Positions 1-23,364 of a stretch of 26,165 bases of DNA are shown here, one piece after another. The notes below the pieces were generated by a model, which was not told the DNA's origin, ran no database searches, and was given only the letters and a program-made list of their open reading frames with translations. The position numbers and the translations under genes were made by a program. The DNA is from a virus. The number at the start of each line of letters is the position of its first letter. The stretch's first letter is position 1. The stretch lies in IMG/VR virus record IMGVR_UViG_3300023049_000221, positions 1-26,165 of that record; one strand, written 5' to 3'.

Positions 1-8
1 CTTGCTAT

Positions 9-405: not shown

Positions 406-407
406 GA

Positions 408-620: not shown

Positions 621-636
621 ATAAAAACTCCTTTGA

Positions 637-1065
637 TTAACCAATTAACTCAAAATGAACGAGATCATCAAAATTTTGATCCCAGTAGTCATAATCACCA
701 TCCCAGTCACCGCCCCATCGCAGGTCAACTCCTTTTTGCCAAGCAACATATTTAACTAACATTGCAAACTCATAGAATTTAACTCGGTCTTTCCACTTTG
801 CTCCCCAACTAACTCCTCCAGGAATTGGCCATGGAGCAGCATCAATTGCAAAACTCAAACCAACTTTATTTGGCTTGTGTTTTGTTTTTGAGTACGGAAC
901 TTGTGTTGAACCTCTTTGGATCAATGTGTTATGACGTTTCTCTGATCTTACACCCTCAAGAACTGTGACATCATAGAATTTAATCAATTCTTCAAAAATT
1001 TCAACTAATCGTGGATCACATGTATCTAACCTAGAGCGTGATCTTTTTGAGTAACTATAAGACAT
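637..1065 (-). CDS. endolysin, peptidase M15 family (L-Ala-D-Glu / D-Ala-D-Ala type)
   Basis: Predicted zinc peptidase that cuts peptide cross-bridges of peptidoglycan to release progeny. With the ATG at 1065 the protein is 142 residues. Visible family features are an EGVRS segment (37-41), the zinc-binding pair His63 and Asp75 in a Ser-Lys-Thr-Lys-His ... Phe-Ala-Ile-Asp-Ala-Ala-Pro arrangement, a WGGDWD block (117-122), and the third zinc ligand His137 in DLVHFEL. This layout is that of phage M15 endolysins and the length is normal for a single-domain member. There is no signal peptide or separate cell-wall-binding domain, so export depends on the holin. A TTG start at 1080 is an alternative: an AGGAAG lies 3 nt before it, too close, and about 18 nt before the ATG, too far. 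The end overlaps the region upstream of the holin start. Confidence 0.88.
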   Translation of the reverse strand: MSYSYSKRSRSRLDTCDPRLVEIFEELIKFYDVTVLEGVRSEKRHNTLIQRGSTQVPYSKTKHKPNKVGLSFAIDAAPWPIPGGVSWGAKWKDRVKFYEFAMLVKYVAWQKGVDLRWGGDWDGDYDYWDQNFDDLVHFELIG

Positions 1066-1103
1066 AATAAATAATAACAACTTCTTCCTACAAAAGCAAC
1101 TTC

Positions 1104-2282
1104 TTAGATTTCACATAGAGTTACATGGCCTGAATCTGGACCACTTTTTCCTTGAAAACTCCATAAGAATTTATAAGGATCATCATCTGTACCTGTAAAC
1201 AAAATTCCACTTTTACTTGGAAAGTATGTTCCACCAACACCATTTAAAAATGAGTTCCAAGAACGAGTAACACCAGCAGCAGTAGAAAAGAAAAGATAAT
1301 CAGCTGAATCAGAGTCTACTACAGCTTTAGCAAATATATTGGAGTCAGAAACTATTGGCCAATAAGTTGTTAAATCATAACCAGCACTAGATACACCACT
1401 ATTTAAAAGGACAATACCCTCAGAACCTGTTCCTGTTTTGTCCCAGTAATGTTGCTGAAAATTACTTCCACTGTCTAAATGACAAAACAACAGACCACTA
1501 ACTTCCCCAGTAAACTCAACATTTGAACCATTCTGACCATAGGCTGTAATTGTTATGTTCAGTGAACCATCAAGATTAACAAGTGCTCCAAAAATATCTA
1601 CACCAGTCAAACAATTGAACCAATGATCAGAATCAATATCTGTGTTTTGTTTTGAACAAAGACATTGTTCCCTTGTTGAAAATGTAGTTAAACCTGTAAC
1701 AGTTTCTTTATCAACTAAAGCCCATGTTCCAGAGGTTTCTTGTAGGGTTAAAACAGTAAAGACTGTGGAACCTCGATGAAATAGGAGAAGCTTATCATCA
1801 TTTTCTCCTATCCATTTCATGTCAAAATCTGCTAGTTCAATACTACTATTAACAAAACTAGCACCCTCAATTCCGGACAAGAGAACTGTTTTTGTTGGAT
1901 TACCATCTGCTTCCAAAACTGAGGTAAAGTCATATTCAGCAAGCACTCCATTTTCATCAAGTACAGCTATTTTCTGTGGACTTGTTTTATACTGTAATGC
2001 TCTTACAGGTTTGTTTGTTTCATTGTAGTTGTTTTCAACAATAGTTCCGGAGTTGTTATAAAAAGTCCCAATATGTTTTGTTGAACTATTCATTCCGACA
2101 CAAGCAATGGAAAGCCCAGAGTTGTCAAGATCAAACAAAGTTTGAGTTAGACCTGTAGCACCAAAAAGCCTGTATGCAATTGGTTCATTGTCTACTCTCT
2201 CACCTGTTGTTGCTGCAACCCATTTCCCAAGAGGAAATGGTTTTTTAACTGAGTTAGGTGTTGTGTGTCCATAAATAGCCAT
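1104..2282 (-). CDS. distal tail / putative receptor-binding protein (unknown family)
   Basis: A 392-residue protein not recognised as a named family. It is rich in Gly, Ser, Thr, Asn and aromatic residues, and alternates short predicted beta strands with Asn/Asp/Gly turns (for example AVLDENGVLAEYDF and DFDMKWIGENDDKLLLF), suggesting an all-beta domain, possibly propeller-like. It contains several cysteines (CVGMN, CLCSKQ, FNCLTG, FCHLD, TLCEI), unusual for this window. It is the last tail gene before lysis and shares a TAATG junction with the fibre-stalk gene upstream, so it is coupled to it and probably sits at the tail tip or fibre end, where host recognition takes place. The receptor-binding role is inferred from position and composition only. 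The N-terminal NSVKKPFPLGKW may be the attachment segment. Confidence 0.6.
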   Translation of the reverse strand: MAIYGHTTPNSVKKPFPLGKWVAATTGERVDNEPIAYRLFGATGLTQTLFDLDNSGLSIACVGMNSSTKHIGTFYNNSGTIVENNYNETNKPVRALQYKTSPQKIAVLDENGVLAEYDFTSVLEADGNPTKTVLLSGIEGASFVNSSIELADFDMKWIGENDDKLLLFHRGSTVFTVLTLQETSGTWALVDKETVTGLTTFSTREQCLCSKQNTDIDSDHWFNCLTGVDIFGALVNLDGSLNITITAYGQNGSNVEFTGEVSGLLFCHLDSGSNFQQHYWDKTGTGSEGIVLLNSGVSSAGYDLTTYWPIVSDSNIFAKAVVDSDSADYLFFSTAAGVTRSWNSFLNGVGGTYFPSKSGILFTGTDDDPYKFLWSFQGKSGPDSGHVTLCEI

Positions 2283-3262
2283 TATATATCCTCAGAATTT
2301 TTTGTTAACATAATTGAGCCTTTTGCATTTTTTAAAGTTGTTGCTGAGGTTACTTTAGCAACAACATATCTTGGACTTCCAGAGGCAACTGTATTGTTAC
2401 CTGTAAAAGTATTTGAATCAGGAGTTCCAGCAGAAACGGAGAAAGAACCCCCAGTGACTGCTACTCCACTTGCTGAGGTTTTATTAGCTGAAAGATAAAG
2501 TTCAATCGTTGCGGAACCTTCATCTGGATCATAGCTCCCCCCTGAAAGAGTTGAATCATAATCAATATATCCAATAACATAATCACCCTCAATTATTTTT
2601 CCAGCTAGAGACCCATTCTGAGGGTAAGTAACTGGAGTGTTTGTCAAACGAATGTTGTTTACTGTTTGGCTATTACCATCAAGCGTTGAAATTAGTTTTA
2701 CAAGAGGTAAATTTTGGACAATCCATTTGTTGATTGCAGTATCATAAAGTAAAATATAACTTTGACCACTAGAAATTTCACCAGAAGTTAAACTACGATT
2801 CCCACGGTCAACAATTTCATAAGGATTTCCGTTTGTTGTTTCTTCTAATGTTGGGGCAACTCCACAAGTCTTATCAAAGTTTACACGTATCGCTACACTA
2901 TCACCAATTGTCAAATCTGAATTTGTGAATTCATAAGCTGTTGATGTACCCGTAGTTGATGCAACAGGTAATTGAGCACCAACTACAGCCGCTTCAGCCG
3001 CTGTTTGGGCAAGTTCAGCCGCAACTACACTAGCATTTGCAGTTACTACATCAGCGTTTGTTAACACTACGTCAGCGTTTGTTAACACTACGTCAGCCGC
3101 TGTTGCATTTGCATTTGTAGTTGAAGTAGCCGCTGCATCTACTACTTGAGTTCCAACTGTTGCAACATCAGCAATGATTGCTGGAAACTCAGTTAAGTGT
3201 CCATAATTTAAAAACTCTGCCGCTGTATATGTATTTCCATTAATTGTTACTGGAAAGCTCAT
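2282..3262 (-). CDS. tail fibre / stalk protein with heptad repeats
   Basis: A 326-residue tail protein. Residues about 30-100 are almost pure Ala/Val/Thr/Asn with a 7-residue periodicity (units such as DVVLTNA, repeated twice exactly, then degenerate copies), typical of a trimeric coiled-coil stalk. After that come beta-rich segments: one resembling the collar-like YEFTNSDLTIGDSVAIRVNF region (about 110-135) and a C-terminal strand-rich domain (about 220-320). Seen: the repeat and composition change. Inferred: a homotrimeric fibre attached to the tail tip through the N-terminal domain (MSFPVTINGNTYTAAEFL). It overlaps the upstream gene by ATGA and the downstream gene by TAATG. It could also be a tip spike rather than a side fibre. 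Confidence 0.65.
   Translation of the reverse strand: MSFPVTINGNTYTAAEFLNYGHLTEFPAIIADVATVGTQVVDAAATSTTNANATAADVVLTNADVVLTNADVVTANASVVAAELAQTAAEAAVVGAQLPVASTTGTSTAYEFTNSDLTIGDSVAIRVNFDKTCGVAPTLEETTNGNPYEIVDRGNRSLTSGEISSGQSYILLYDTAINKWIVQNLPLVKLISTLDGNSQTVNNIRLTNTPVTYPQNGSLAGKIIEGDYVIGYIDYDSTLSGGSYDPDEGSATIELYLSANKTSASGVAVTGGSFSVSAGTPDSNTFTGNNTVASGSPRYVVAKVTSATTLKNAKGSIMLTKNSEDI
3051..3092 (-). repeat. two exact tandem copies of a 21-nt repeat in the fibre gene
   Basis: Positions 3051-3071 and 3072-3092 are identical 21-mers, each coding for one heptad (DVVLTNA, in phase). Degenerate units flank them on both sides. Exact identity at the DNA level, including third codon positions, indicates recent duplication in the stalk. 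Confidence 0.9.
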
Positions 3263-4407
3263 GTTAGTAATCCTCCTTGAACTTCTTCTATGATTGCACT
3301 AAAACCCATGTGAGAAAAATAGGCGTAAGTAAGTGAATTAAGTGATTGTAAAGTAGCTGTGAAACTACGTCTGTGTAAATTTTCTACATCATCTGGATCA
3401 AAAATGAAAAACATTTGTTTATTAATTCCTTGTATCCGCTGCATTTCTAAAGCTTGTGTTAAAGCTTCCGACTCAGGTAAGTGATCAATGCTAAATGTTA
3501 GCGTCCTGTAAGCTTGTTTTTGACTGTAGGATTTTTCACCACCCCATGACTTTTCAAATTCAGTGTCTGTTTGGTATTGAAAAGCAGCTCCGTATACTGG
3601 GTTGATTGAAGGTTGCCATCCTGGAGTTAAAAAGCAACGTGATATTGCAAAGTCACTAGGGTTTGTTGAATCAAAAAATTCATACCTTGCATATGTACCA
3701 ACAACAGCTTCCAATAGCATCGTATCAATAATTGGGAATTTTAAAGTTTGTCGTTCTTCTTCTGTTGTTTTACCATTCCAGTAACTTGGATGTTGGAATG
3801 GTAAACTTCCCCATTCATATATTCTATCAAAAATATCTTTTTGAGTGCTATCAAAAACAGGAGCTGAAAAATCTCCAGTGTTGCAACGAATTGTATCCCC
3901 AACTGATAAAGCACTTTGTACAGTAGCATTGTGAATGTCATTTGTAGCAACACTTGCTAAATTAATAACCCCAGTTGCACCCCCAGAGACGGTAAGTGTG
4001 GTGTTTGACTTATATAAAGTCTCACCAATTGTAAAAAAGTCACCTGAAACAACAGGGAGTGCAACTCCAACAGGGGCTTGAAAAGTTACACTTGTTGCAC
4101 CAATGCTTGCGTCAGCTCCAACAGTTGCACTATTACTAAAAGAAGGCGTGTTTGAAATTCTTAAGCGCCGCTGTCCTTCGATTGTTGAACTAGTACTTGG
4201 TATTGCCCCTAAAGAAATATCGCGTGGAGCGCCAAGATCAATATCAAACCATGTTGCTGAGTTTGAAGAGCCATCGGCAAGAGCAGGTAGGCTCAAACGA
4301 TCATCTTGTAAATTAGTGAGAGGTAGTTTCCAGTCACCACCAGTCAGCACCACATTAAAGAATGTGTTGTCAATATAGTTTGGAAACCCCATTATACAAT
4401 TACTCAT
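3259..4407 (-). CDS. tail tip protein (hypothetical, 382 residues)
   Basis: A tail tip protein placed between the hub-like gene and the fibre gene; not assigned to a named family. The N-terminal third has a jelly-roll-like pattern (ATWFDIDLGAPRDISLGAI) such as is found in carbohydrate- or protein-binding modules of distal tail proteins. The middle contains an insertion-like module with VSGDFFTIGETLY (about 115-135), and the C-terminal third (about 290-375) is denser and more conserved in character (YRTLTFSIDHLPESEALTQALEMQ), ending in a strand-helix pattern typical of tail assembly proteins. AGG is positioned 8 nt before the ATG at 4407, three bases downstream of the stop of the hub gene; an in-frame ATG at 4392 is the alternative. 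It overlaps the fibre gene by ATGA. The role in the tip is inferred from order. Confidence 0.6.
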   Translation of the reverse strand: MSNCIMGFPNYIDNTFFNVVLTGGDWKLPLTNLQDDRLSLPALADGSSNSATWFDIDLGAPRDISLGAIPSTSSTIEGQRRLRISNTPSFSNSATVGADASIGATSVTFQAPVGVALPVVSGDFFTIGETLYKSNTTLTVSGGATGVINLASVATNDIHNATVQSALSVGDTIRCNTGDFSAPVFDSTQKDIFDRIYEWGSLPFQHPSYWNGKTTEEERQTLKFPIIDTMLLEAVVGTYARYEFFDSTNPSDFAISRCFLTPGWQPSINPVYGAAFQYQTDTEFEKSWGGEKSYSQKQAYRTLTFSIDHLPESEALTQALEMQRIQGINKQMFFIFDPDDVENLHRRSFTATLQSLNSLTYAYFSHMGFSAIIEEVQGGLLT

Positions 4408-4410
4408 TTA

Positions 4411-6165
4411 TCAGCCTAGAACAATATATTTAATTTTTGATTTTCTTAAATTAATTTCTTTGCCAAGTATAACGGTTTTTTTACCAGAAGACAAATCAAA
4501 CCGACCATCAATTTGCAAAGTAACAATATCACCTAAGTTTAAAGGAGTTAAATCATAGGTTGAAAATTCAAAAAACTGTCTGTCAATCTGTCTTAAATTT
4601 TCTTGCCTAGTTAGCTCAGTTTGGGTATCTGTTTCATTAACAAAATGAGTATCAATTTCAAATATTGGAGCGTTTGGGTGTTTTCTAGAAACTGCTTCAT
4701 TTTCAACACTAGCTAATTCCCTATACTTAGTGTTGTATAGGAGTTGGTCACTTGTTCCAATTACAGAACCTGCAAAATTATTATCAGCAATTACCTTGTA
4801 GTTTTTCTTGTAGTTTAGTTTGATTTGCTTTGGAGGTACTCCTTGGCCGCTGTCTTTACTTTTAAAAGTAGAAAGGTCAATAACAGAATCTTGCTTAAAA
4901 GTTTTCACACTTGTTCCAGAGTCTGGGCTTTTGAAAATTCCAACTCGGAGTTTGTTATCAGTATCAGAAATTAAGTAACCTCCAATTCCACTCATAATTT
5001 CAACTGCAAGTTTTTGAACGGTACTAGAGTCCTCAACATAGAGCTCTTGTGAGCTACTGTTATCAGAGTCAACATCTGTAAAAGTTGAGTTTACATAATC
5101 ACTTGTTGTGAAACCAATTCTTTCAATTAAGTTTTTTACAATTGCAGCACCCGTCAGCGAACTTTGTGTAAAATTTGCTGTCACCTCCCCAGCAGGAGCA
5201 CCTGCTAATCTAAAAAGACCTTCAGCTTTACAAGTTACAAATTTACCAGAAGCAATTGTTGCAGCTTGCAATGCTGCAAGATTTGCAAAGTCACCACTTG
5301 TTCCAACAGTTGTGTCTAAAGATTTACCCAGTCCTTTGTCAAGAACATCAAGATCACCTAAAGTTGTAATTGAAGAAGTTGTTCCATCATAATCAAAATT
5401 CAAAGCATAAATTCTAGTAGCTTCATTTACCAAAGCAGGTTTTGCATTTAAAATAGGACCTCCAAGCCCAAAGGGCTTAGGCTGACCTTTGATTCCGTCA
5501 GCACTACCCTCAATTCCAGTTGAACCTACATTTGTACCTAAGAAAAGCTCTTTTTGGGCTTGAACTCCCAGGTCGTCTAAACGGTCAGCAATAGAAAAAA
5601 CAACTTCACTGAATTTAACTTCAGCGTATATAACAGTTCCTGCAAAAACATTTACTGTAGGAACAGCTTCTTTCTGGTTTGAAATTTGCTTGATACGAAT
5701 ACTACCTTTTGCAAAACCCAGTTTACGAACAAAGTCCCAGTATCCGTCTTTGTTATTAACTTTTATTGTACCTTTTGTAGATTTACTCACACCAAAAGTA
5801 GTACCAACTGAAAACATGTATTGTTCTATATTTCCAGGATCAACAATATCACCTCTGTATTCAGTTACTCCAGCAACATGACTAGAGGTTCCTATATTTA
5901 ACGTTCTCGCACCATCAAGTACCCAAGTAGCATAAGTTCCTGACCCAGTTGAACTTGTTACGTCTAAAACCACATTATTTTCAACAACAGTTGTTACAGT
6001 ACCAGTCAGGTAGTTGCTGTCATTATGTTTAGCAATAACTTCCATACCTTTTACAAAAGGTTGGCTACTCAAAAGAGTAAATGCTTTTGTACCTGTTCCA
6101 ACGGACAAGCTTGTTGTGCTGTCCCCTTGTACATTCGTATCAATTTGAATTAATGTAACTGTCAT
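4411..6165 (-). CDS. tail hub-like protein (584 residues)
   Basis: Large protein directly downstream of the tape measure, the slot of the tail tip hub. The first ~90 residues look like an added beta domain (TFTLL-type strands, VLDVTSSTGSG). From about residue 95 onward is a core with motifs seen in related siphophage tail hub proteins: FAGTVIYAEV, a DRLDDLG segment, GQPKPFGLGGPILNAKPALV, EGLFRLAGAPAGEVTANF, and a C-terminal strand domain ending DIVTLQIDGRFDL. Hub proteins form the closing ring under the tube, contact the tape measure and open on receptor binding. It starts with an ATGA overlap with the tape measure stop, so translation is coupled. Seen: motifs and position; inferred: hub function. 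Confidence 0.65.
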   Translation of the reverse strand: MTVTLIQIDTNVQGDSTTSLSVGTGTKAFTLLSSQPFVKGMEVIAKHNDSNYLTGTVTTVVENNVVLDVTSSTGSGTYATWVLDGARTLNIGTSSHVAGVTEYRGDIVDPGNIEQYMFSVGTTFGVSKSTKGTIKVNNKDGYWDFVRKLGFAKGSIRIKQISNQKEAVPTVNVFAGTVIYAEVKFSEVVFSIADRLDDLGVQAQKELFLGTNVGSTGIEGSADGIKGQPKPFGLGGPILNAKPALVNEATRIYALNFDYDGTTSSITTLGDLDVLDKGLGKSLDTTVGTSGDFANLAALQAATIASGKFVTCKAEGLFRLAGAPAGEVTANFTQSSLTGAAIVKNLIERIGFTTSDYVNSTFTDVDSDNSSSQELYVEDSSTVQKLAVEIMSGIGGYLISDTDNKLRVGIFKSPDSGTSVKTFKQDSVIDLSTFKSKDSGQGVPPKQIKLNYKKNYKVIADNNFAGSVIGTSDQLLYNTKYRELASVENEAVSRKHPNAPIFEIDTHFVNETDTQTELTRQENLRQIDRQFFEFSTYDLTPLNLGDIVTLQIDGRFDLSSGKKTVILGKEINLRKSKIKYIVLG

Positions 6166-11408: not shown

Positions 11409-12572
11409 TTAAGCAGCGATTTTTGTAATACCAACAGTACTACCTAAAGCACCGTTTAAGTAGGCTTCATAACCAAAACGCTGAATTACATCTTGATCAA
11501 GTCCGCTAGTGGGGTCTTCACCACTTGCAGGAGCAGCAGTTGGGAAATCAAAGATATAAGCATTGCCTGCAACATCCTCAACAATAACTGCTAACTTCGC
11601 GTTAGTGAAAGCCAAGTAGTCTGTAAGAAGAGTATTGTCTTCTAAGTAAGCTTCAATGTTGATAGTGGCTGTCTGTGTACCAGAACCAATACCTACGTTA
11701 GCAAGTTTACCAATAGCTTGTTGATCACGTAGGGCTGGACTAATAGTAAAGTTGAAATTAGTAATATCCAAAGTACTCAAACTTGAACCAAGGTATACAC
11801 CCTTGATATTATCAACAGCATTCATGCTACGAGTAGTATCAGCAGCAGTCGGGGAACCGTCTCCTTGAGTAACTGTAGCAACCTTCATCTCTTTGCCTCG
11901 CATGGAGAATGAACCTGTTACGAGCGACCCAGGAGTAAACGTAAATTGATTTTGACCAACACGACATCCAGGAAAATACTTGAAAATAGTTTTATCAGTA
12001 CGTTCAACTTCGACTAAAAATGACTGATCAGTTGTTGCGTTCTTCAGCAAACCACCTTTCATTGTTACTGCATCACCTGCTGACTCATCTGTAAGAGTAC
12101 CGCCTTCAACTTTGATTGTTCCTGCCGCAACTTCAGTTACTCTGAAGAATCCATTATTATCAGCAGTTGTAAACCCATCAGTTTTAATCCATTGTCCAAC
12201 TTGAACAGAAGCAGAAACAAAGCCGTTACCAGAGTCTGTAAAAGTATTATCTGAATTAACAGCAGCAAAAGTTGTACCAGAAAGCCCAATATCAGCAGCA
12301 AATTCAGAACGTAGGCAACCCTCCATTAGGTATTCAATTCCAACACCAAAATTCATTTCAACACCAATATCACCACCTGCTCCAATTCCAACACGATTTA
12401 CACTTTGTGTGTTACCTGTTGCATTGATGTTTTGGCTTCTTGTTGTATTAGTTTGTTGTGACAAGTTTTCACTTGTTACGTTTAGGTTTTTCATCTTATT
12501 AGAAACACTAGGAGTTTCAGCCCAAGTTGTCTCTTTAAAGATTCTAACCTGTGTCTTTGAAGAGTCTGACAT
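11409..12572 (-). CDS. major tail tube protein
   Basis: A 387-residue structural protein in the position of the tail tube subunit, immediately before the G/GT chaperones. N-terminal sequence (TQVRIFKETTWAETP, NLNVTSENLSQQTNTTRS) and the central GSFSMRGKEMKVATVTQG plus C-terminal AYLEDNTLLTDYLAFTNAKLAVIVEDVAGNAYIFDFP follow the pattern of siphophage tube proteins of the longer type. Residues about 95-165 (SDNTFTDSGNGF ... GGTLTDESAGDAV) look like an inserted beta domain exposed on the tube surface. The protein forms stacked hexameric rings around the tape measure. ATG with AAGGAG overlapping the stop of the preceding 56-residue gene, so both are read from the TTGCAA/TATAAT promoter just upstream. 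The insert boundary is by eye. Confidence 0.88.
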   Translation of the reverse strand: MSDSSKTQVRIFKETTWAETPSVSNKMKNLNVTSENLSQQTNTTRSQNINATGNTQSVNRVGIGAGGDIGVEMNFGVGIEYLMEGCLRSEFAADIGLSGTTFAAVNSDNTFTDSGNGFVSASVQVGQWIKTDGFTTADNNGFFRVTEVAAGTIKVEGGTLTDESAGDAVTMKGGLLKNATTDQSFLVEVERTDKTIFKYFPGCRVGQNQFTFTPGSLVTGSFSMRGKEMKVATVTQGDGSPTAADTTRSMNAVDNIKGVYLGSSLSTLDITNFNFTISPALRDQQAIGKLANVGIGSGTQTATINIEAYLEDNTLLTDYLAFTNAKLAVIVEDVAGNAYIFDFPTAAPASGEDPTSGLDQDVIQRFGYEAYLNGALGSTVGITKIAA

Positions 12573-12574
12573 AC

Positions 12575-12745
12575 TTAGTTCTCCTTAATAGTTTTAGAGG
12601 GTTTTACTGGAGTTGAAGGTTTTTCAACTTTGTAGAATTCAGCTACACCACTTTTTACTAAGCGGTCAGCTTCAGCTTCTGGGTAAGTACCTACATAGCC
12701 AACATAAGTACTACCTTTTTCTTTTTTAAACTTCACGGTCTTCAT
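12575..12745 (-). CDS. small protein (DUF7302-like), 56 residues
   Basis: Short protein beginning MKTVKFKKEKGSTYVGY and containing EADRLVKSGVAEFY, followed by a Pro/Lys-rich tail (PSTPVKPSKTIKEN). Many phages carry a similar small protein with a lysine-rich first strand and a Leu-x-x-x-Gly-Val-Ala-Glu motif among structural genes; function unknown. ATG at 12745 chosen because AAGGAG lies 7-8 bases upstream and because a promoter immediately before it would give a leader of about 15 nt. A longer in-frame reading to 12943 would run over the promoter and has no ribosome binding site. It is the first gene of the tail-tube transcription unit and its stop overlaps the ribosome binding region of the tube gene. 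Confidence 0.75.
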   Translation of the reverse strand: MKTVKFKKEKGSTYVGYVGTYPEAEADRLVKSGVAEFYKVEKPSTPVKPSKTIKEN

Positions 12746-12766
12746 TTTAAATCTCCTTAAAAAATT

Positions 12767-12795
12767 ATTATACAAACTTATCAACTTTTTTGCAA
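12767..12795 (-). promoter_or_regulatory. promoter TTGCAA-N17-TATAAT before the tail tube unit
   Basis: -35 TTGCAA at 12790-12795, -10 TATAAT (perfect) at 12767-12772, spacer exactly 17 nt, in the 73-nt gap before the 56-residue gene. The predicted start near 12760 leaves a leader of about 15 nt containing AAGGAG. The same -35 and spacer recur before scaffold and portal. Confidence 0.72.
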
Positions 12796-12818
12796 TGTTT
12801 TCAATTTTTTTTAAAAAT

Positions 12819-13043
12819 CTAAACTTGTTGTGTAAATCCCTCAGGAGCCTCCAAAGAGAAAACAACATCTGTAAATTCAATTTGTAAGTTTGTTTTGTGT
12901 TGTTCTGTAAGCATTGAACTTCCGACAAGATAATGGGTTTCACTCATAAGAGGAGTAATCTGAATTGTTTCCACAACTTCAGAAAAATAAGCTAAGCGAA
13001 ATTCAGTATCAATTATTTTAGGCCATATAACAAATATTGTCAT
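12819..13043 (-). CDS. hypothetical protein, 74 residues
   Basis: Not recognised. The protein begins MTIFVIWPKIIDTEFRL and includes ETIQITPLMSETHYLVGSSML and a C-terminal IEFTDVVFSLEAPEGFTQQV, suggesting a small alpha/beta or all-beta fold; no membrane segment or known motif. ATG at 13043 was chosen because AGGA lies 9 nt upstream; the ten extra codons up to 13073 overlap the end of the decayed LamG gene. It sits directly after that gene's TAA (2 nt gap) and 23 nt before the -35 box of the tail tube promoter. The LamG remnant's last codons contain the ribosome binding site, so the two were probably acquired together. Confidence 0.6.
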   Translation of the reverse strand: MTIFVIWPKIIDTEFRLAYFSEVVETIQITPLMSETHYLVGSSMLTEQHKTNLQIEFTDVVFSLEAPEGFTQQV

Positions 13044-13044
13044 C

Positions 13045-13763
13045 TTAAAAATTCCTGTTTTGTCGCGTTTCAATAAACGCAGTTAATGCTGCTGCCTTGG
13101 TATCATCAAGATATTCATTGCCCATACTTGCGTGATAGAAGCGATCTGTCGTATCAGAGGTCGGAAATAGCTGCATCGCCACTTGCGCCGCCTCAGTACC
13201 ACTTGTGAAAACCGCCGCCGCATCAACTCGCGTTTCATCATTAATCCAAAACTCATTTGTTGGGCTGAAGCATCATAACTTAGTATGCCTATGCAGTCTG
13301 TGTCATCGGGGAACCATGTAGAACCACTATGAAAAATGTTCATTGCACCGCTATTCTGTTGCTGCACGTTAAATTCAGGACTACCACCCCCAGCCTCACG
13401 AATAAGAATCCCATTTGTGTTGGTACGTGTCTGTACCAAAATATGTTGATCCAAGGCCACCATGCTTAAACGCGAAAGCCATCCACCAATCTTGTGTAGA
13501 AGCAGCTTAATGTAAATTAGCAATTAAAGATGTGTTGCCACCTGCAATCACAAACTTGTCGCTACCATCACTAGAGAAGTAAGCAGTAGTTTCACCAGCC
13601 GTTCCATTGAAAGTTGGGTCGTCTGTTGAAACAGAATCTGTTTGACCAAGCAGTTATTGTCTGTGCTGTTCCATCATAACTTGCCGAAAGAGCAACATCT
13701 AAATCAATTTTGGAACTAGGAACAACTTCTGAAATCTTTCGATTACGGTCTTTAGTTTGGAAC
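13045..13763 (-). pseudogene. decayed LamG/concanavalin-like domain gene
   Basis: Reading the minus strand through frame changes gives one continuous LamG-type protein: SASYDGTAQTITAW, then TDDPTFNGTAGETTAYFSSD, DKFVIAGGNTSLIANLH, a TAA, QDWWMAFAFKHGGLGSTY, TNTNGILIREAGGGSPEF, IGILSYDASAQQMSF, WINDETRVDAAAVF and a closing FYHASMGNEYLDD...ETRQNRNF. Lesions: a frame break near 13640-13655 (probably with lost sequence), a nonsense codon at 13507-13509 (TAA where Lys is expected), one extra T in the run at 13438-13441, and one missing T in the run at 13248-13251. No intact start is visible; the 5' end is a copy of scaffold sequence. A 147-codon open frame (13083-13523) is just a mosaic of this gene. 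GC is about 47% for 13081-13260 (hand count) against about 33% in nearby tail DNA, suggesting transfer. Such domains are found in phage fibres and adhesion proteins. Sequencing error could explain the two homopolymer lesions but not all four. Confidence 0.78.
13712..13763 (-). repeat. partial copy of scaffold gene sequence
   Basis: Positions 13731-13763 are identical over 33 nt to 20210-20242 in the scaffold gene and are in the same reading frame (FQTKDRNRKIS). Similarity continues (ISEVV versus ISDVV, then PSS versus PSA) if 30 nt of scaffold, ten codons between two TTGTTC direct repeats, are removed. The tail terminator stop codon lies inside this copy. Confidence 0.88.
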
Positions 13764-14186
13764 AACTGTAGTTCTCTTTACAACTAATTCATCATAATAA
13801 AATGGAAGAGAAACATTTGTTTGGTTCCAACTTTTTGAAACACCAATTTCATTCTTTGTAACTGCACTCAAAATTTCACCTGTATACAAGGATAGGGCTT
13901 CAAAGTTATTTGCAAGGTCATCTGCAATTTGATCAGCTAAAAGAGTACCTGTACCTTCAGGAGTAAAAATTTGAAAAAATATTAGTCCTCGTCTGCGAGT
14001 CCTAACACTTGGACCACTTAGTCCTACAAAGTCACTAATCGTATTTTGGATACTTACCCGAAGCCATGCCGTACCTATTGTAGGCTTAAACTCAACATTG
14101 TCCCATGCAATTTGGTTTGATGCAACACCTGTAAAATTATCACTGATATATTTTTGTAGGTTTTTTCTTGCGTTTTCAAAACTCAT
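13752..14186 (-). CDS. tail terminator protein
   Basis: A 144-residue protein with the pattern of phage tail terminators (DUF4128-like): an N-terminal helix (FENARKNLQKYISDNF), QIAWDNVEFKPTIGTAWLRVSI, RRRGLIFFQIFTPEGTGTLLADQIADDLANNFEAL and a final strand pair. These proteins form a hexameric ring that stops tube growth and joins the tail to the neck. It shares a TAATG junction with the HK97-gp10-like gene. Oddity: the last residues and the TAA are encoded by DNA identical to the scaffold gene (GTTCCAAACTAAAG), so its natural 3' end may have been replaced by recombination. Domain and order are seen; ring function is known for the family. Confidence 0.85.
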   Translation of the reverse strand: MSFENARKNLQKYISDNFTGVASNQIAWDNVEFKPTIGTAWLRVSIQNTISDFVGLSGPSVRTRRRGLIFFQIFTPEGTGTLLADQIADDLANNFEALSLYTGEILSAVTKNEIGVSKSWNQTNVSLPFYYDELVVKRTTVVPN

Positions 14187-14925: not shown

Positions 14926-15418
14926 GATACACTCCTACACTCATGCTTCCTTGCTTTGCTATATAAAGCCCAGAAAGAAGGCGGTCAGTGAACTTGTACA
15001 TCCTATCAGTTGGAGCATCAGTTCTGTATTCAACTTCTAACTCTCCAACTTTTTCTTTCTTCACGTAATTACTACTACTAGTATTTTGTACAAGTTCCTC
15101 ACTCAAAGAAGCAAGAGCAAGTTCATATGCAGCTTGTTTAATAAGGGTAGGTACAGACTCTTTGATGTCCCTACCCTCTTTGTCATAAACCCCAGTACGA
15201 GGCCAACCTAAAGCTTGTTCAGTTGTGTAAATTATACCAATCCAAGAATAAGTTGTGTCGAGGTAAGTTGTAGCTTTGCGTAGAGCAGATTCTTTTACAG
15301 CAGTTGTACCTACCCAAGTTAAATTTGATAAATTTTCAAAGTATGTATCTGCTTCTGTAGTTGAAACATAACTTTCAGCAGTTTCCAAACCAGTTCCATC
15401 TTCAACAATCAAAGTCAT
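14918..15418 (-). CDS. head-tail adaptor (DnaT-like connector protein)
   Basis: A 166-residue protein beginning MTLIVEDGTGLETAESYVST, followed by EADTYFENLSNLTW, an Ala/Tyr-rich helix (ESALRKATTYLDTTYSW), GWPRTGVYDKEGR and an IKQAAYELALASL helix. This is the pattern of the family annotated in phages as 'putative DnaT-like ssDNA binding protein', which by gene order is the adaptor ring under the portal; real DNA binding is doubtful. It overlaps the upstream coiled-coil gene by ATGA and the downstream closure gene. The C-terminal segment (LLSGLYIAKQGSMSVGVYRA) probably inserts into the neck. Confidence 0.82.
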   Translation of the reverse strand: MTLIVEDGTGLETAESYVSTTEADTYFENLSNLTWVGTTAVKESALRKATTYLDTTYSWIGIIYTTEQALGWPRTGVYDKEGRDIKESVPTLIKQAAYELALASLSEELVQNTSSSNYVKKEKVGELEVEYRTDAPTDRMYKFTDRLLSGLYIAKQGSMSVGVYRA

Positions 15419-15882
15419 TTACCCATTCCTTTGGAAATCTTAGTTAATAGTTGTTTGATTTCGGTTATATCCTCATCAACATTTTGTAAATCTCGTTCAT
15501 TTGAATAAACAATGTTTTCAATCCTACTCATCCAAGTATTTTTTTGTACTAATTGTTCTGTGTTTTGTCTAACTTGTTGAGTAATAGGTTGAAGTTGGGT
15601 TGTAAAATCATCTTTTGTAAAATTAGGTTTTGCAAAAAATTGGTCTGCTTCAATTTTATATTCTTTAAAAGCTTCTTTTACATATTTTGTTTCAATTATG
15701 TTTGCTTGTAAGTCATATTTCATTCCAAACATCATTGAAAAAATTGCAAGAATTCCAGCAGCACAAATTGTTACACCCCCTCTCATCAAGATTTCCCCAA
15801 AAGTTTTATCGCTCCTAGTGGACTTATTAACAGCAGCAACTATATGAGTAATTGACTCTTTATCAGAAACTGTTAGACTCAT
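15415..15882 (-). CDS. membrane-anchored coiled-coil protein of unknown function
   Basis: A 155-residue protein with one clear membrane segment (about residues 32-52, GVTICAAGILAIFSMMFGM) after a charged N-terminal domain, and a long Gln/Glu/Lys-rich region (about 60-150) with coiled-coil periodicity (TQLQPITQQVRQNTEQLVQ, DLQNVDEDITEIKQLLTKI). Not a recognised family. A membrane protein inside a head-connector operon is unusual. It overlaps both neighbours by ATGA, so it is co-translated with the SGNH protein and the adaptor. Possibilities: a host-membrane protein acting during infection (such as superinfection exclusion), an extra lysis component, or an ejected protein. No evidence chooses among these. 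Confidence 0.7.
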   Translation of the reverse strand: MSLTVSDKESITHIVAAVNKSTRSDKTFGEILMRGGVTICAAGILAIFSMMFGMKYDLQANIIETKYVKEAFKEYKIEADQFFAKPNFTKDDFTTQLQPITQQVRQNTEQLVQKNTWMSRIENIVYSNERDLQNVDEDITEIKQLLTKISKGMGK

Positions 15883-17501
15883 TGCAAGCTTCCAAGTTCA
15901 ATACCAATTTCTTCAGCAGCATCCATGTCATAGTGAATCCCATTTGGTGTTTCTTCTCGCCAAGAAAGACTTGTAGCTACTGTGACAGGATTAACAATTG
16001 AGAGGTTAGAATCAGACCCAGCTAGTGCATCTTGAGCAGTTTGAACAACTCCCTCAAATGCATATTTTCCATCATTTCTTGAATCTGTATCTTCAACAGC
16101 TGTTCGTAAAAGATAAATAGGTAGGTTTGAACTAAAGAGCCCACGTAGGTTTGTGTTCAAAGTTACAATTGCAGCAGAATACTGACCACTCCTAGTTTCT
16201 GTGTCTTGGTCATTTGTTCCAAGTGATACAACAGCAGCTTTGTAGTTTGGAGTTAGTCCAATTGACTTTAAATAACTTTCAAACGCTGTTTTCTTTTCAA
16301 GAAGCTTGTCCCAAGAATTATTGCTATCACCTTCTGGTAACCATTTTGTACTAGCAATGTCACCTGCAACAGCCTGCTTCAAGAAAGCAAAATGTTTTGT
16401 GGGATTGTCAGCTTCTAGTTTATGAGCCATTGTTAAATCTGGTCCGAAACCCCAAAATCCAGGAGAAGAACTAATTTCAACTTGTGAGTTTCGTGGGGAC
16501 ATTGGGTGGAGTCCAAGTTGAGTATTCGTTAAACCCTGCCTGTAGCCCCAAACAACTGAACGAGGTTTTACACTTTCATAGGAAGAGTCAAGACCTGCTG
16601 TATTTAAAGCACCTCCGTTCATTAGGGAGTCACCTAACATAATATAAGTATCAATTGTACGTAACATTCCATAGTAAATACGCAAGGCTTTTAACAGAAC
16701 TGCTCTATCACTGTCTGTAAGTTTGTGGTCAAAACAAAGCCAACCTTTAAACGTACCTTTTGTACTAACACATAGGCGTACAGGATCAGAGTGATCCCCA
16801 GAGTTGTAGGCAAGTCCATAAGAATTAAACCCGTAGACTTCAGCACCATTTACAGATAGGGAAAACTCAGTAGCAGGGGATGCTACATCTTTATTATAGC
16901 CATGTAAAATTGAGGTCACGTTCACAGGAATTGCACCAACTGAACCTATTCCCCCAGATGTAGCGGCCATACTTGCATCGTAAGTTGTACTTGCACCCCT
17001 AGTAACCCAGTGAAGGTCTTCATCTGTGTCTAAGCGAACATAACCACCAGGATTTGATGAACCTGAAATGTTACTATAAAAGACAAAACCGTTTCCTCCT
17101 GCCGTTGAATCAGCTTCATTAATAAAGAACCATTCACAACCTGTTCCGTTGTGTAAAAAGTTGCGATCACCTGAATCTCCAAGTTGGTAATTGTTTTGTG
17201 AACCTCCACAAGTAGCACCTTCTGTAGAGTCAACCATGAAAGTGTTACTAATGTGAGTTAAAGCATCAGAACTTGAGCCTTTGTTCCCAATTTCTGTTAT
17301 GTTAGTTCCACTTAAAGTTTTCTGTAGAGAATCCGTTGCATCAATCCAATCAAAAGGAGCAAGACTTTGAATTGTCTTAGCAGCAGCAGCAAGTTCCCCT
17401 GCTAACTTTTCCAAACGATTTTCACGCGCATTGAAAAGAGAAGCTTGCAAAGCCGCCTTCACTTTCCGACTGGAATTGAAACCTGCGATTTTGCTAGGCA
17501 T
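15879..17501 (-). CDS. SGNH-hydrolase (esterase-like) virion protein with beta-rich N-terminal domain
   Basis: A 540-residue protein. Residues 1-50 are helical and basic; 50-275 form a Gly/Ser/aromatic-rich region like a LamG-type beta sandwich, ending LTDSDRAVLLKALRIYYG. Residues 285-540 are an SGNH hydrolase: block I YIMLGDSLMNGG (Ser292 nucleophile), an AVAG segment around 377-380, block III VVSLGTND (Gly428, Asn430), and block V NGIHYD (His523), in which the usual Asp three residues before His is Asn520. SGNH enzymes remove acyl groups from sugars, so deacetylation of surface polysaccharide is plausible. Its gene lies in the head module, not among tail fibres, suggesting a capsid-attached fibre or decoration. 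Upstream AAGGACC serves as ribosome binding site. Fold motifs are seen; substrate and location are inferred. Confidence 0.82.
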   Translation of the reverse strand: MPSKIAGFNSSRKVKAALQASLFNARENRLEKLAGELAAAAKTIQSLAPFDWIDATDSLQKTLSGTNITEIGNKGSSSDALTHISNTFMVDSTEGATCGGSQNNYQLGDSGDRNFLHNGTGCEWFFINEADSTAGGNGFVFYSNISGSSNPGGYVRLDTDEDLHWVTRGASTTYDASMAATSGGIGSVGAIPVNVTSILHGYNKDVASPATEFSLSVNGAEVYGFNSYGLAYNSGDHSDPVRLCVSTKGTFKGWLCFDHKLTDSDRAVLLKALRIYYGMLRTIDTYIMLGDSLMNGGALNTAGLDSSYESVKPRSVVWGYRQGLTNTQLGLHPMSPRNSQVEISSSPGFWGFGPDLTMAHKLEADNPTKHFAFLKQAVAGDIASTKWLPEGDSNNSWDKLLEKKTAFESYLKSIGLTPNYKAAVVSLGTNDQDTETRSGQYSAAIVTLNTNLRGLFSSNLPIYLLRTAVEDTDSRNDGKYAFEGVVQTAQDALAGSDSNLSIVNPVTVATSLSWREETPNGIHYDMDAAEEIGIELGSLQ

Positions 17502-18627: not shown

Positions 18628-19680
18628 TCACGCTTCACGAGTAATAAGCCGAGCAATCTTGATTTGTTTACGCTCAGGGTAAACACGTTCCCATGATGTA
18701 GCAGCAGCAAGGTTATTTGTCGTTGCAGCATTACTCGGACCGCCATTAGGAGCGGAACCCGCGTACTTGTGACCAACAGGGTGCAAACACCATTCAACAC
18801 GATTGTATAGGATTTCTTGACCACCACCGTTACCAGCATCAGGCTTGCGATTTGCTTCAGTTGGAACTTTAGGTGAACTCTGACCAAAACGGACAGCACC
18901 TGAACCAAACAACCAACTCTCATAAACACCAGAAGAAGCAGGAACTGAATCATCAATAATTACCAAGCGACCTAGGAATGTCGGAATCTTCACATTACCT
19001 TGGGCGTCAGGAACAAAGTCAATCAAGTTATTCTTCTGCATACGATTGTATACAATAGAATGAACCATCATCATACCAAGGTCTTCCATGCTGTCACCCA
19101 TTGTCACAGCAGCGTCAAGGAACGCTTCCGCAGAAAAATCGGTAACACCAGCGGAATAGGTTGCTCCAGAAATGTCATTTGTTAAATCATGTTGTGTATG
19201 TTCTGAACCGCTAGGAGCAGCAGCATTGTCGGCAAATACACCAGTCATAGTTGCTATAAAAGCTTTTTGAAGGCGGCGCGACCAATAACGTGAGACTGAT
19301 TCAGCAATCGCAGCCATTGGATCAGTACCTGCAAGAGCAGTTGTCAAATCTGAACTAGACCAACTTTGGTTACGAGAAAGACGTACACCAGTTTCCTGAG
19401 AGGTTTGAATTTTCTTAGGAGCAGAGTTAGCTGAGCCTCCAGTGAAGACATCATCACCAGTATCAGCTGAAACATTGTCGTCGTCGTTGTCAAGATCACG
19501 AAAGCTAGGCATTTCAAAGGTAATACCTCCACCTGCAAGCTTGTTTGTAATATCAGCATCAACAACCAATGCACCAGATTGCACTAGTCGAGATTTTTCT
19601 TCAGTTTGTTGTTGTACATAAGGGGAAAAGATTTCTGGGACAATAACGTCTGAAATCAAAGTAGTTGGTCCTGTAGCCAT
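18628..19680 (-). CDS. major capsid protein
   Basis: A 350-residue protein after the scaffold gene. N-terminal TLISDVIVPEIFSPYVQQQTEEKSRLVQ (in two parts, residues 6-33) is the typical extended arm and start of the spine helix; ITFEMPSFRDLDNDDDNVSADT follows, then the long helix region DPMAAIAESVSRYWSRRLQKAF (about 115-136), a DFSAEAFLDAAVTMGD segment and the A-domain SIVYNRMQKNNLIDFVPDAQ, LVIIDDSVPA. This matches phage 'major capsid protein 13-like' sequences with HK97-type fold. The ATG at 19680 was chosen over 19695 because GGAGA lies eight bases upstream and includes part of the earlier ATG. It is read from its own upstream element and ends at a strong terminator. No prohead protease gene is present nearby, consistent with a separate scaffold protein. 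Confidence 0.9.
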   Translation of the reverse strand: MATGPTTLISDVIVPEIFSPYVQQQTEEKSRLVQSGALVVDADITNKLAGGGITFEMPSFRDLDNDDDNVSADTGDDVFTGGSANSAPKKIQTSQETGVRLSRNQSWSSSDLTTALAGTDPMAAIAESVSRYWSRRLQKAFIATMTGVFADNAAAPSGSEHTQHDLTNDISGATYSAGVTDFSAEAFLDAAVTMGDSMEDLGMMMVHSIVYNRMQKNNLIDFVPDAQGNVKIPTFLGRLVIIDDSVPASSGVYESWLFGSGAVRFGQSSPKVPTEANRKPDAGNGGGQEILYNRVEWCLHPVGHKYAGSAPNGGPSNAATTNNLAAATSWERVYPERKQIKIARLITREA

Positions 19681-19791
19681 AAGAATAGTCTCCATTTATA
19701 GTTGAAAAAATTATTTCGGATATAAACAGCGACTAGCCACATGACCAGACCGAGGAGTACCCATGCACTCAAAACCGAATCTACTACTACT

Positions 19792-19819
19792 AGTATAATG
19801 CTTTCAAGCCCAAAAGCAA
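19792..19819 (-). promoter_or_regulatory. putative promoter TTGCTT-N16-TATACT before the capsid gene
   Basis: In the 144-nt gap between scaffold stop and the capsid ATG: TTGCTT at 19814-19819, TATACT at 19792-19797. The segment CTTTTGGGCTTG followed by AAAG and TTATACT is shared with the gap before terS. Predicted leader about 105 nt, in which nothing else was recognised. Confidence 0.55.
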
Positions 19820-19824
19820 ACCCT

Positions 19825-20646
19825 TTATTTTATAGCAGGTTTTAGTCCACCAATAGTTGTACCAGCAGAGATAGCCAACTGTTGGGCTCGTGCAGGGTTT
19901 TCACGATAAACACGACCTTGCTCACTCATGTTCCATGCTGAACTGCTCCAAGGATTACCAGAACCACCAGAACCACCAGAACCACCAGAACCACCGCCAC
20001 CTTGGCTTTGCGGCCACCAGTGAGGTCGTTTCTGTTGCATTTCAGTCAACCAAACAGTTGGATCAATTCCTGGAGTAACACCAACTCCATCTTTAGCCAT
20101 TACTGTTCCATCTTCAGACAACTCAAAGCTACGTTCTGCAATCATTAGAACGTCTTCAACAGCACTAGGAACAATTTTTTGTTCTGTTGCTGCTTGTCGA
20201 ACAACATCCGAAATCTTTCGATTACGGTCTTTAGTTTGGAACTCTCCAATAGTTTGGGCTTGTTCCCCACTTACTGCTTTCAATTGGTCACGTTCGCGCT
20301 CAAGTGGAGCAATACGGGACTTGATACGAGTCTCAACCATTTTGTTGAGTTTTTCATCATCAATTTTATCACCAGAAACAGCTTCCAACTCTTCAAAGCG
20401 ATCAAGCTTATCAAGAATTTCAGTTGGAGAAAGGTTGAGGCTACGAATACCAGCGTACTCTTCTAGTTTAGTTTTCGTTTTCTTGTGATCATTGCGTTCC
20501 ATATTCAGAGCATTTTGAACAGCAGAAACATCATTGTCAGTTCTAATACCTGTTACGTCAAGTTGGAACTTACCATTAACTTCTTTGTAGTATGTGTGTA
20601 GTGAAGCGTCCACTTCATCGAGTGAATCAATTAGAAATTTTAACAT
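19825..20646 (-). CDS. capsid scaffold protein
   Basis: A 273-residue protein with the expected layout: acidic N-terminal part (FLIDSLDEVDASLHTYY), a long Lys/Glu coiled coil (about residues 40-150: ALNMERNDHKKTKTKLEEYAG, RIAPLERERDQLKAV), a helical region, and a conserved C-terminal capsid-interaction segment NPWSSSAWNMSEQGRVYREN then ARAQQLAISAGTTIGG. It is an internal scaffold for prohead assembly, absent from mature heads. Just before the C-terminal segment is a (GGS)n linker (about 217-229), unusual. Part of this gene (20160-20242) recurs at the end of the tail terminator gene. ATG with AAAGGA upstream, driven by a TTGCAA/GATAAT promoter. Confidence 0.85.
   Translation of the reverse strand: MLKFLIDSLDEVDASLHTYYKEVNGKFQLDVTGIRTDNDVSAVQNALNMERNDHKKTKTKLEEYAGIRSLNLSPTEILDKLDRFEELEAVSGDKIDDEKLNKMVETRIKSRIAPLERERDQLKAVSGEQAQTIGEFQTKDRNRKISDVVRQAATEQKIVPSAVEDVLMIAERSFELSEDGTVMAKDGVGVTPGIDPTVWLTEMQQKRPHWWPQSQGGGGSGGSGGSGGSGNPWSSSAWNMSEQGRVYRENPARAQQLAISAGTTIGGLKPAIK
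19961..19996 (-). repeat. 9-nt tandem repeat coding Gly-Gly-Ser linker
   Basis: Four tandem copies of the plus-strand unit gaaccacca (last copy with one change), at 19961, 19970, 19979 and 19988. It codes for a GGSGGSGGSG linker in the scaffold protein. Such short repeats can expand or contract by replication slippage. Confidence 0.92.
20160..20242 (-). repeat. scaffold segment duplicated at 13712-13763
   Basis: Donor-like copy of the sequence that reappears after the tail terminator. The intact scaffold version contains ten codons (RQAATEQKIV) between two TTGTTC repeats that are missing from the other copy. Base identity is complete over 20210-20242. Confidence 0.88.
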
Positions 20647-20705
20647 TTTTAGGTCCTTTCATTGATACCAGTAACAATAAAACCTACCCCATGGTCGGCT
20701 GAGTT

Positions 20706-20734
20706 ATTATCATCAATTATCGGGGAAATTGCAA
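20706..20734 (-). promoter_or_regulatory. promoter TTGCAA-N17-GATAAT before the scaffold gene
   Basis: -35 TTGCAA at 20729-20734, -10 GATAAT at 20706-20711, spacer exactly 17 nt, in the 92-nt gap between the MuF-like gene and scaffold. Predicted leader about 55 nt, ending in AAAGGACCTAAAAATG. Same architecture as the portal and tail-tube promoters. Confidence 0.68.
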
Positions 20735-20738
20735 GGTA

Positions 20739-21926
20739 TTAAAACTCAAGTCCAGCATCAATGAAGGCTTCTTTGTGTTTGCTCGCAAGTTGTTTGAGTG
20801 AAAGTTCACCTCCTTTTTGGTCAGTGAACTTGTCAAGAGTCAAACCACCTTTCCGGAACAACTGTGCTTTTGTTTTCCCAAGTGTATCATCTTGAAAACT
20901 GTTGCTCTGTTTTGTAAGCCAATCTTGGTAGCTCGTTTTTGCTGGCACTTGTCCAGTGAGTTCACGTACTCGTTTTCGTTTATATTCATCATAAGACCCT
21001 TTGTGACCTTTTGGTAATGTTGCGCGGTTTTTTGCTGATAGTCCATTTGCTTTGTTATACTCACCAACAAATTGTTTTTCATTGAAAGGTTTTGCTGGGC
21101 GTTCACCTAAAACTTTCCCATCAATTACAGGTACACGCAATGAACGACAATTAAAATGAAGTGGAGGAACTGGTCCTTTCCCAATTTCAAATTTCTTACC
21201 GTCGTTGCCAGCACAAACAAGAGTCGTTCTGTTATCAAGTGTAGCAACATAGAGTTCGGATTCATAAAGGTCTTGATTCTCTTTGTAGAATTCAGAACGT
21301 GCAGCTCCTGCTAAACTGTTTATAGCAGTACGAGTTATTGCTTGGGCATTGTTACGAGTGAGCTGGGTAATTCCATCTACACCTTTTTTTGCAGTAGTTC
21401 CAACAATGCGTCGAGCAATTCTTTGTGAACTTTCACCTTGGATCATTCCAATTAAAATTTGACTTTCAATTCTGTTAACATCCGCTACTGCAATATCCCG
21501 CGCCCAGCTTTTAAGAACACGACCTTCAAAAGGGTGGTTAGTTACAAGCCCACGGAGGGTGGCAACAGTTGGGAGTGCAGTTTCAAGAACCACAGGTGAA
21601 ACTGCACTGAGCATAGCAGCAGCACCAGCAGCCTCATCCTGAACTAACTCTGTAAATTCAGAAAGCCACATTTTTTCAGCATCTTTCCATGCTTTGCCTC
21701 GTAGATTGCGGATGTAAGCTTTTAGAAGTTTGTATTTCTTTAGTGACCTCGGGGACAAACCTTTTGTACCTGCTAAATCATTCCTGATTTTTGCAGCTAG
21801 GTCAGTTTCAGTTGCGTTTAAAAGGGTGTTTATTTTGTTGCGGACTTCACTTGAATATCTCATCAAATAAGTTTGATGTCTAATCAAAGCATCAAAATAT
21901 TCCTCATTGACTTTCTTCTTGAGCAT
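20739..21926 (-). CDS. MuF-like head morphogenesis protein
   Basis: A 395-residue minor head protein. The MuF domain is recognisable at about residues 140-265: helices SWARDIAVADVNRIESQILIG and NAQAITRTAINSLAGAARSEFY, then YVATLDNRTTLVCAGNDGKKF and GPVPPLHFNCRSLRVPV with Cys238, His257 and Cys260 in the usual places. MuF proteins bind portal and are needed early in head assembly; some copies enter the capsid. The C-terminal 120 residues (KTSYQDWLTKQSNSFQDDTLGKTKAQLF in part) form the usual tail of this protein, with no toxin domain. ATG with TAGGA eight bases upstream, overlapping the portal stop by 23 nt. Confidence 0.9.
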   Translation of the reverse strand: MLKKKVNEEYFDALIRHQTYLMRYSSEVRNKINTLLNATETDLAAKIRNDLAGTKGLSPRSLKKYKLLKAYIRNLRGKAWKDAEKMWLSEFTELVQDEAAGAAAMLSAVSPVVLETALPTVATLRGLVTNHPFEGRVLKSWARDIAVADVNRIESQILIGMIQGESSQRIARRIVGTTAKKGVDGITQLTRNNAQAITRTAINSLAGAARSEFYKENQDLYESELYVATLDNRTTLVCAGNDGKKFEIGKGPVPPLHFNCRSLRVPVIDGKVLGERPAKPFNEKQFVGEYNKANGLSAKNRATLPKGHKGSYDEYKRKRVRELTGQVPAKTSYQDWLTKQSNSFQDDTLGKTKAQLFRKGGLTLDKFTDQKGGELSLKQLASKHKEAFIDAGLEF

Positions 21927-23364
21927 CTTCTATTCCTACGCCTTCAAGCTCTGGTGTTTCTTCTTCAATAGCTGCAAGTTCTTCTTCATAATTCAGCTCC
22001 GTTAAACCTTTGTTCTGCATGTTTAGGTGGATTGTACGTTTACTAATTGGTGCTCCAAGACTTTTTGCAGTCATGTATTCAACAAGTTCTTTTGCTGCAA
22101 TTTTGTCATCAACAAAGTCAAGATTTGGGGTAACAACAACATCATCAGGATTTGCACCTACCCACTCAGCAGCGAATCGCAAGATTTTTTCTAAACCTCC
22201 AGCACCAGCTAAAGCAATTTGAGTTAGTGTTGCTGTCTGGGCTGAAATGCGTTTTGTAAGTGCTACACCACTTTCTTTTTGTTTGCTACGAGTGTCAATT
22301 AATTGTCCTGCTTTGTTTGAGGCAACTGTTTTATCATTGTCTAACGATTCACGCTGTTCTGTAAGTCCAGCTGAGTTTACTCCAATGAATTTTGCATCAC
22401 CTCCAGCAGGTAGCACTAAAGCTGCTCCTGCTCCAACACGAACCGCTTCATCTTTACTGCTACCTATAACAACTAACGTATCTTGGCCTTGTAGGTGCAA
22501 TGACTGACGATAATCAGCTTCTCCACGGTAGATTGTAAGTCCAAGGCGGGCAAGCCCAACGAGTGGAGGGGAATCAGGGGATGCAACAATGTCCTTTGAA
22601 TTGATAAAAGTGAATGGAATTTTGTCTAATGTTTTGCCTGCAATAAGTGGAGTTTTTAAAGAGTTTTCATCAAACATTGCATTTACATCTTCAAAAACGC
22701 CCACACTATAAGCAGCAGTACCTCTTTTTTCATTGGCAAACACTTCACCATAAACAAGAGTACGGTATTTATTTTTCCATTCCCAATTGAAATCAGCATT
22801 GCGTTGATATTCACTTTCATCAAGAACAACAAGATTTAAGCTGTCTTGAGCTACCTCATTGCGCTGTCCATCATCCCAGTTCAAGATATTTTCAGCTTCA
22901 TAAAGTGCAATGTAAGGTATTGTACCAAAAGGTTGGGGCGTTGTTGGTAAATCTAAAAGTAAACCTACCCTGCCCGTGATTAGCTGCTGTTCATTGATGC
23001 GACGCAACAGTTGAAATAAATTTTCATTCTGAATTGTTGCATTTTCAAACATAGCCTCTAGTTGCTTTGGGAGTTCAATAACTGGAGGCTTTGACCACAT
23101 GATTCCCATGTATGTTTCTACAGCTGTCTTCATGAAGTCGTGGAATACTGCTTTTTCTTTGTAGGCTTCGTAGGCTTGAAAGCCTATCGAATTTGTGTTC
23201 AAAGATAAACTACTAAGCATTCCATCAGCGCGGTGACCTGCTGTTGGCGACAAATAGGTAGTACCTTTTGACTTAACAATTCGTTCCCCTTGATAAGAGT
23301 CACGACAGAGGACCCAGTCTTGGTCAAATTCAGAGTATTTTGGGTGTTTACTGTTTATTGCCAT
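21904..23364 (-). CDS. portal protein (DUF4055 type)
   Basis: A 486-residue portal subunit; twelve copies form the DNA channel at one capsid vertex. The N-terminus KHPKYSEFDQDWVLCRDSYQGERIV (in parts) then TTYLSPTAGH is the signature of DUF4055 portals; also AVFHDFMKTAVETYMGIMWSKPP, LITGRVGLLLDLPTT, and YRGEADYRQSLHLQGQDTLVV. The C-terminal domain ends in an acidic tail (EEELAAIEEETPELEGVG). The start at 23364 keeps the conserved N-terminus. There is no Shine-Dalgarno sequence; instead a TATAAT box ends 6 nt before the ATG, so the mRNA is predicted to be leaderless. The next gene upstream on this strand is terL, separated by two plus-strand genes. Confidence 0.92.
   Translation of the reverse strand: MAINSKHPKYSEFDQDWVLCRDSYQGERIVKSKGTTYLSPTAGHRADGMLSSLSLNTNSIGFQAYEAYKEKAVFHDFMKTAVETYMGIMWSKPPVIELPKQLEAMFENATIQNENLFQLLRRINEQQLITGRVGLLLDLPTTPQPFGTIPYIALYEAENILNWDDGQRNEVAQDSLNLVVLDESEYQRNADFNWEWKNKYRTLVYGEVFANEKRGTAAYSVGVFEDVNAMFDENSLKTPLIAGKTLDKIPFTFINSKDIVASPDSPPLVGLARLGLTIYRGEADYRQSLHLQGQDTLVVIGSSKDEAVRVGAGAALVLPAGGDAKFIGVNSAGLTEQRESLDNDKTVASNKAGQLIDTRSKQKESGVALTKRISAQTATLTQIALAGAGGLEKILRFAAEWVGANPDDVVVTPNLDFVDDKIAAKELVEYMTAKSLGAPISKRTIHLNMQNKGLTELNYEEELAAIEEETPELEGVGIEDAQEESQ

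Follow-up and report, generated by a model that had tools for sequence, protein, structure and literature searches.

The stretch of DNA analysed here, called the window in the following, comprises the 26,165 nt of the IMG/VR record IMGVR_UViG_3300023049_000221, which derives from an uncultured tailed phage. The genes discussed around the tail terminator, as well as the scaffold gene, are all located on the minus strand (Table 1). The gene names scaffold and tail terminator, which had been assigned in an earlier note from the sequence alone, were borne out by matches to PHROG and Pfam families.

Table 1. Features of the window at the tail terminator junction and in the scaffold gene
Feature	Position	Strand	Evidence and remarks
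Tail tube gene	11409..12572	-	Pfam PF18906; 60-63% identity to L030 and L031
Small ORF (56 aa), native here, delimits the insert at its far end	12575..12745	-	49-54% identity to the ORF that separates terminator and tube in L031 and L030
Small ORF (74 aa), second cassette gene	12819..13043	-	36% identity, E 6e-8, to the L038 gene directly after the LamG-type gene
LamG-type pseudogene without 5' end	13045..13719	-	Frameshift-aware alignment to intact L038 and L036
Second AGTTGTTCC of the flanking 9-nt repeat	13719..13727	-	
Ectopic patch of scaffold-gene sequence	13720..13763	-	42/44 identical to 20199-20242
Tail terminator gene	13752..14186	-	PHROG 179, E 6e-28; Pfam PF13554; 52% identity to L030 and L031; stop inside the patch
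First AGTTGTTCC of the flanking 9-nt repeat	13759..13767	-	
Head scaffolding protein gene	19825..20646	-	PHROG 206, E 1e-44; relatives with 43-48% identity align across the source segment
Source segment within the scaffold gene	20199..20242	-	Codons for EFQTKDRNRKISDVV

A cassette inserted between tail terminator and tail tube

In the two closest relatives of the tail module, L030 and L031, the next gene after the terminator is a small ORF of about 60 aa, behind which lies the tail tube gene. L003 has the tail tube gene itself directly after the terminator. Since the 56-aa ORF preceding the tube in the window is native, about 1 kb (12746-13763) is extra DNA, and this insert was not found at the same place in L030, L031 or L003. 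It contains a LamG-type gene and a 74-aa ORF. Relatives of the LamG-type gene were present on viral contigs (L021-L026) and bacterial contigs (L036-L040). On L038 an intact LamG-type gene of 270 aa is followed by a relative of the 74-aa ORF with an overlap of 4 nt. Because the two genes are adjacent there as well, they form a unit found in genomes that are otherwise unrelated.

The LamG-type gene of the window is a pseudogene. When positions 13770-13040 were read against the intact relatives by frameshift-aware alignment, frameshifts were detected near 13645-13651, 13419-13467 and 13249-13261, together with one stop codon ending at 13507, and the terminator gene showed no lesion in this alignment. 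The 74-aa ORF is intact although its LamG partner is dead. It matched no family, and searches of viral contigs, phages and plasmids gave no match, the only relative found being that beside the LamG-type gene of L038. Protein and DNA comparisons with annotated phages yielded no counterpart of the pseudogene. Neither the pieces of the pseudogene nor four intact LamG-type relatives matched a Pfam profile, so that the designation LamG-type, adopted from the earlier note, describes a resemblance and not membership of a curated family. The one PHROG match among these sequences was to a family of unknown function.

Like the morons of phages, the insert consists of extra genes which are placed between conserved structural genes and are missing in relatives. 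It differs from morons in that its main gene is dead and no promoter or terminator of its own was found: promoter-like sites did not exceed those in shuffled sequences and no terminator-like site was detected. For this reason we speak of an inserted cassette and not of a moron in the strict sense.

The gene cluster contains a second accessory gene at 15879-17501, which is esterase-like (Pfam SASA, E 1e-7) and has a LamG-like N-terminal part. It is followed by 15415-15882 and looks like another insertion, since L030 has nothing between its counterparts at this place. While the tail module of the window resembles those of L030 and L031, its head module resembles L013-L020, and the stretch upstream of the tail genes in L030 did not match the major head protein of the window. 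This suggests an exchange of head and tail modules.

Scaffold sequence at the end of the terminator gene

The boundary between the terminator and the LamG-type gene is occupied by a short patch which is nearly identical to a segment of the scaffold gene. The match is exact over 33 nt (13731-13763 and 20210-20242), the minus strand reading GTTCCAAACTAAAGACCGTAATCGAAAGATTTC at both 13763-13731 and 20242-20210, and extends over 11 more bases to 13720 and 20199, respectively, with two mismatches. The 33-nt identity had been pointed out in the earlier note; the match over 44 positions is far beyond chance. With up to three mismatches allowed, the 33-mer was found nowhere else in the window, and none were expected from shuffled sequences; exact repeats reached at most 18 nt in 200 dinucleotide-preserving shuffles, and a BLAST search against the record gave an E value of 1.5e-15. 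A short in-frame tandem repeat, GGSGGSGGSGGS, is located at 19957-20000 of the scaffold gene and probably gives rise to the next longest exact repeat of the window (30 nt).

Read toward the LamG-type gene, the patch retains the reading frame of the scaffold gene and gives FQTKDRNRKISEVVPSSKIDLD. The terminator enters it in a different frame, reads VVPN* and ends within the copy at a TAA codon (13752-13754). The retained scaffold frame and the stop within the copy agree with the earlier note.

The direction of copying is clear. Five scaffold relatives with 43-48% identity align across the copied segment (..QTKDRNRKISDVVRQAA..), which is absent 3' of the terminator in L003, L030 and L031. The segment is part of the scaffold family in relatives, which makes the scaffold gene the source, and the terminator end received the copy. 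Of the recombination between head and tail modules about 6.5 kb apart that had been proposed, the ectopic copying of scaffold DNA to the boundary of terminator and LamG-type gene thus stands; that the donor was the same genome is not strictly shown, and a sibling phage present in the same infection could have provided the scaffold gene.

The contig L012 (IMG dataset 3300028405), which was assembled independently, comes from this phage or from one very close to it. Its positions 1-4573 are 100% identical to 18701-23273 of the window, which confirms the scaffold side, and the contig ends short of the junction. L012, with the scaffold gene itself, was also the only other contig found to contain the 22-mer core of the patch or any coding of DRNRKIS(D/E)VV. 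The copy-specific junction pattern was found in no second contig by a search that may miss near-identical records.

It might be thought that a junction seen once, in the record of an uncultured virus, is an assembly chimera. We consider this very unlikely. The 33-nt repeat alone cannot join the terminator to the LamG-type gene, as reads must contain each of the two patch edges. Furthermore the copy carries two mismatches, the native order resumes beyond the insert with the small ORF and the tube gene, and the LamG-type gene and its small ORF are a natural unit.

The presence of two near-identical copies could also indicate a functional site, such as a mobile repeat, a regulatory or recombination site, or the template and variable repeats of a diversity-generating system. 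This is extremely improbable: the window contains only two copies, the patch had no match in phage or plasmid records, neither a terminator-like nor a promoter-like site was found within it, and the copy folds no better than shuffled sequences (z = +1.1). Together with the death of the LamG-type gene, the lack of such sites, of an unusual fold and of database matches indicates that the patch is most likely a passive scar.

The two sides of the junction and their possible origin

On the terminator side the patch has left few traces. The alignment with the terminator of L031 is free of gaps up to 13764, the base just before the patch, and the patch contributes no more than the stop and roughly the three codons preceding it. 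With 144 aa the protein falls within the size range of its relatives (137-148 aa). The suggestion of the earlier note that the C-terminus was altered hence found little support. Judged from these alignments the terminator appears barely changed, the position of its native end being uncertain owing to the poor conservation of the C-terminus.

On the other side the native start of the LamG-type gene is missing and the patch occupies its place. In the relative on L038 a start of its own is present together with some 20 N-terminal codons, and the protein begins with MSQILTLFGGNRSIAPLNSLFPSSSVFDLDATIAASY. The window reads ..FQTKDRNRKISEVVPSSKIDLDVALSASY, where the part before Val-Pro-Ser-Ser is scaffold-like, and similarity to the LamG-type relatives starts about where the patch ends. 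As had been claimed, scaffold sequence is joined to the LamG-type gene. The patch thus forms a bridge between the terminator and a gene deprived of its start, for which it could supply a putative TTG start codon (13765-13763).

We regard it as likely that the junction is a recombination scar, formed by insertion of the cassette with capture of a scaffold patch at the left breakpoint. The foreign cassette of two genes would have entered between the terminator and the small ORF preceding the tube, its left end breaking within the 5' part of the LamG-type gene. A patch of 33-44 nt, for which the scaffold gene of the phage itself or of a near-identical sibling served as template, would then have bridged the gap. 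Its ends coincide with GTTCC on the terminator side and GTTGTTC on the LamG side, and this microhomology of a few bases may have guided the capture. The terminator would have received its stop codon from the patch and the LamG-type gene possibly a TTG start; the latter gene would have decayed afterwards, leaving a patch that probably has no present function. The order of these events is a conjecture, since we found no sibling that has the insert but lacks the patch. Both illegitimate and homeologous recombination are considered to have a part in phage mosaicism; for the RecA or Red pathways a minimal homology of about 30 bp is given (Martinsohn et al. 2008, PMC2327257). The matches at the patch ends are well below this length and therefore point to illegitimate recombination.

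Several paths fit within this explanation. According to the earlier note, homology continues to about 13712 if 30 nt between two TTGTTC repeats are deleted. Scaffold and LamG sequence would have been joined at TTGTTCCTAGT, and the 30 nt lost later by slippage between the repeats. TTGTTCCTAGT is indeed present both in the copy and 30 nt further on in the scaffold gene, and the deletion is in frame. The extension is possible but weak: it requires two steps and gains only the five bases CTAGT, for which the chance expectation is about 0.001. Moreover, L038 carries Pro-Ser-Ser at the same place (FPSSSVFDLD). Because intact LamG-type relatives share these residues, the bases of the extension may belong to the LamG-type gene. 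We rate this path as possible but doubtful.

An alternative is offered by a feature that is absent from the earlier note, namely the 9-nt direct repeat AGTTGTTCC which flanks the patch with a spacing of exactly 40 nt. An in-frame fusion of the LamG-type gene to the terminator end might have come first. A polymerase would later have switched at AGTTGTTCC to the scaffold gene (GTTCC), copied about 33 nt and returned via GTTGTTC. The resulting insertion of 40 nt would have restored the stop of the terminator and cut off the LamG-type gene, which then decayed. In agreement with this, the flanks joined without the 40-nt unit form an open frame from the terminator into the LamG-type gene (..KRTTVVPSSKIDLDVALSASY..), and one of the two mismatches, at 13727, is accounted for by a terminator-type A. 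However, a terminator-LamG fusion was found in no relative, in a search that may miss near-identical records, and a shared frame would arise by chance in about 1 of 3 cases. The repeat adds about 5 matching nt, with a chance of about 0.0015 that is similar to the CTAGT coincidence. The templated insertion, which can be put forward only tentatively, explains the anatomy of the junction about as well as recombination followed by a 30-nt deletion, each path leaving unexplained a coincidence of similar size by these rough, post-hoc estimates.

A homeologous crossover within the N-terminal part of the LamG-type gene itself, at ATTTCxGAxGTTGTTC, was also considered. ISEVVPSS of the window resembles ISRLGLSS of L023, and both mismatches would then be LamG sequence, but the relationship of the homologs is too remote for a decision. 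One junction is too little to fix the exact mechanism, and none of these paths is firmly preferred within the general reading of cassette insertion with patch capture.

Relation to known recombination events

The mosaic junctions of temperate phages, as presented by Martinsohn et al. (PMC2327257), likewise show a foreign gene at a gene boundary of the structural cluster, with no long homology. The present junction contains in addition a short patch that stems from a third locus, another gene of this genome, and for such patches we found no description there. A parallel to the patch may be the templated insertions formed by microhomology-mediated template switching (MMBIR; PMC8421209), in which a short insert is copied from elsewhere in the genome and flanked by microhomology. 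The patch shares the property of being a copy of another locus (42 of 44 positions). The MMBIR insertions in that account were described for cancer cells, whereas here a single inferred event in a phage is concerned. A literature search for partial duplication of a scaffold gene near a tail terminator returned nothing.

A more far-reaching version of the templated insertion would be that the 40 nt copied from the scaffold gene repaired an in-frame fusion of terminator and LamG-type gene by restoring the stop and silencing the LamG-type gene. This is rather unlikely; if true, it would mean that intragenomic template switching can repair faulty gene fusions in phages. The junction is an unusually clear mosaic-junction scar of an ordinary kind of event, probably without function, and by itself changes no view of phage biology. 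The molecular steps behind phage mosaicism are for the most part deduced from junctions in which the traces are no longer distinct, and an identifiable patch from the same genome beside a decaying cassette represents a small, readable record of one such step.
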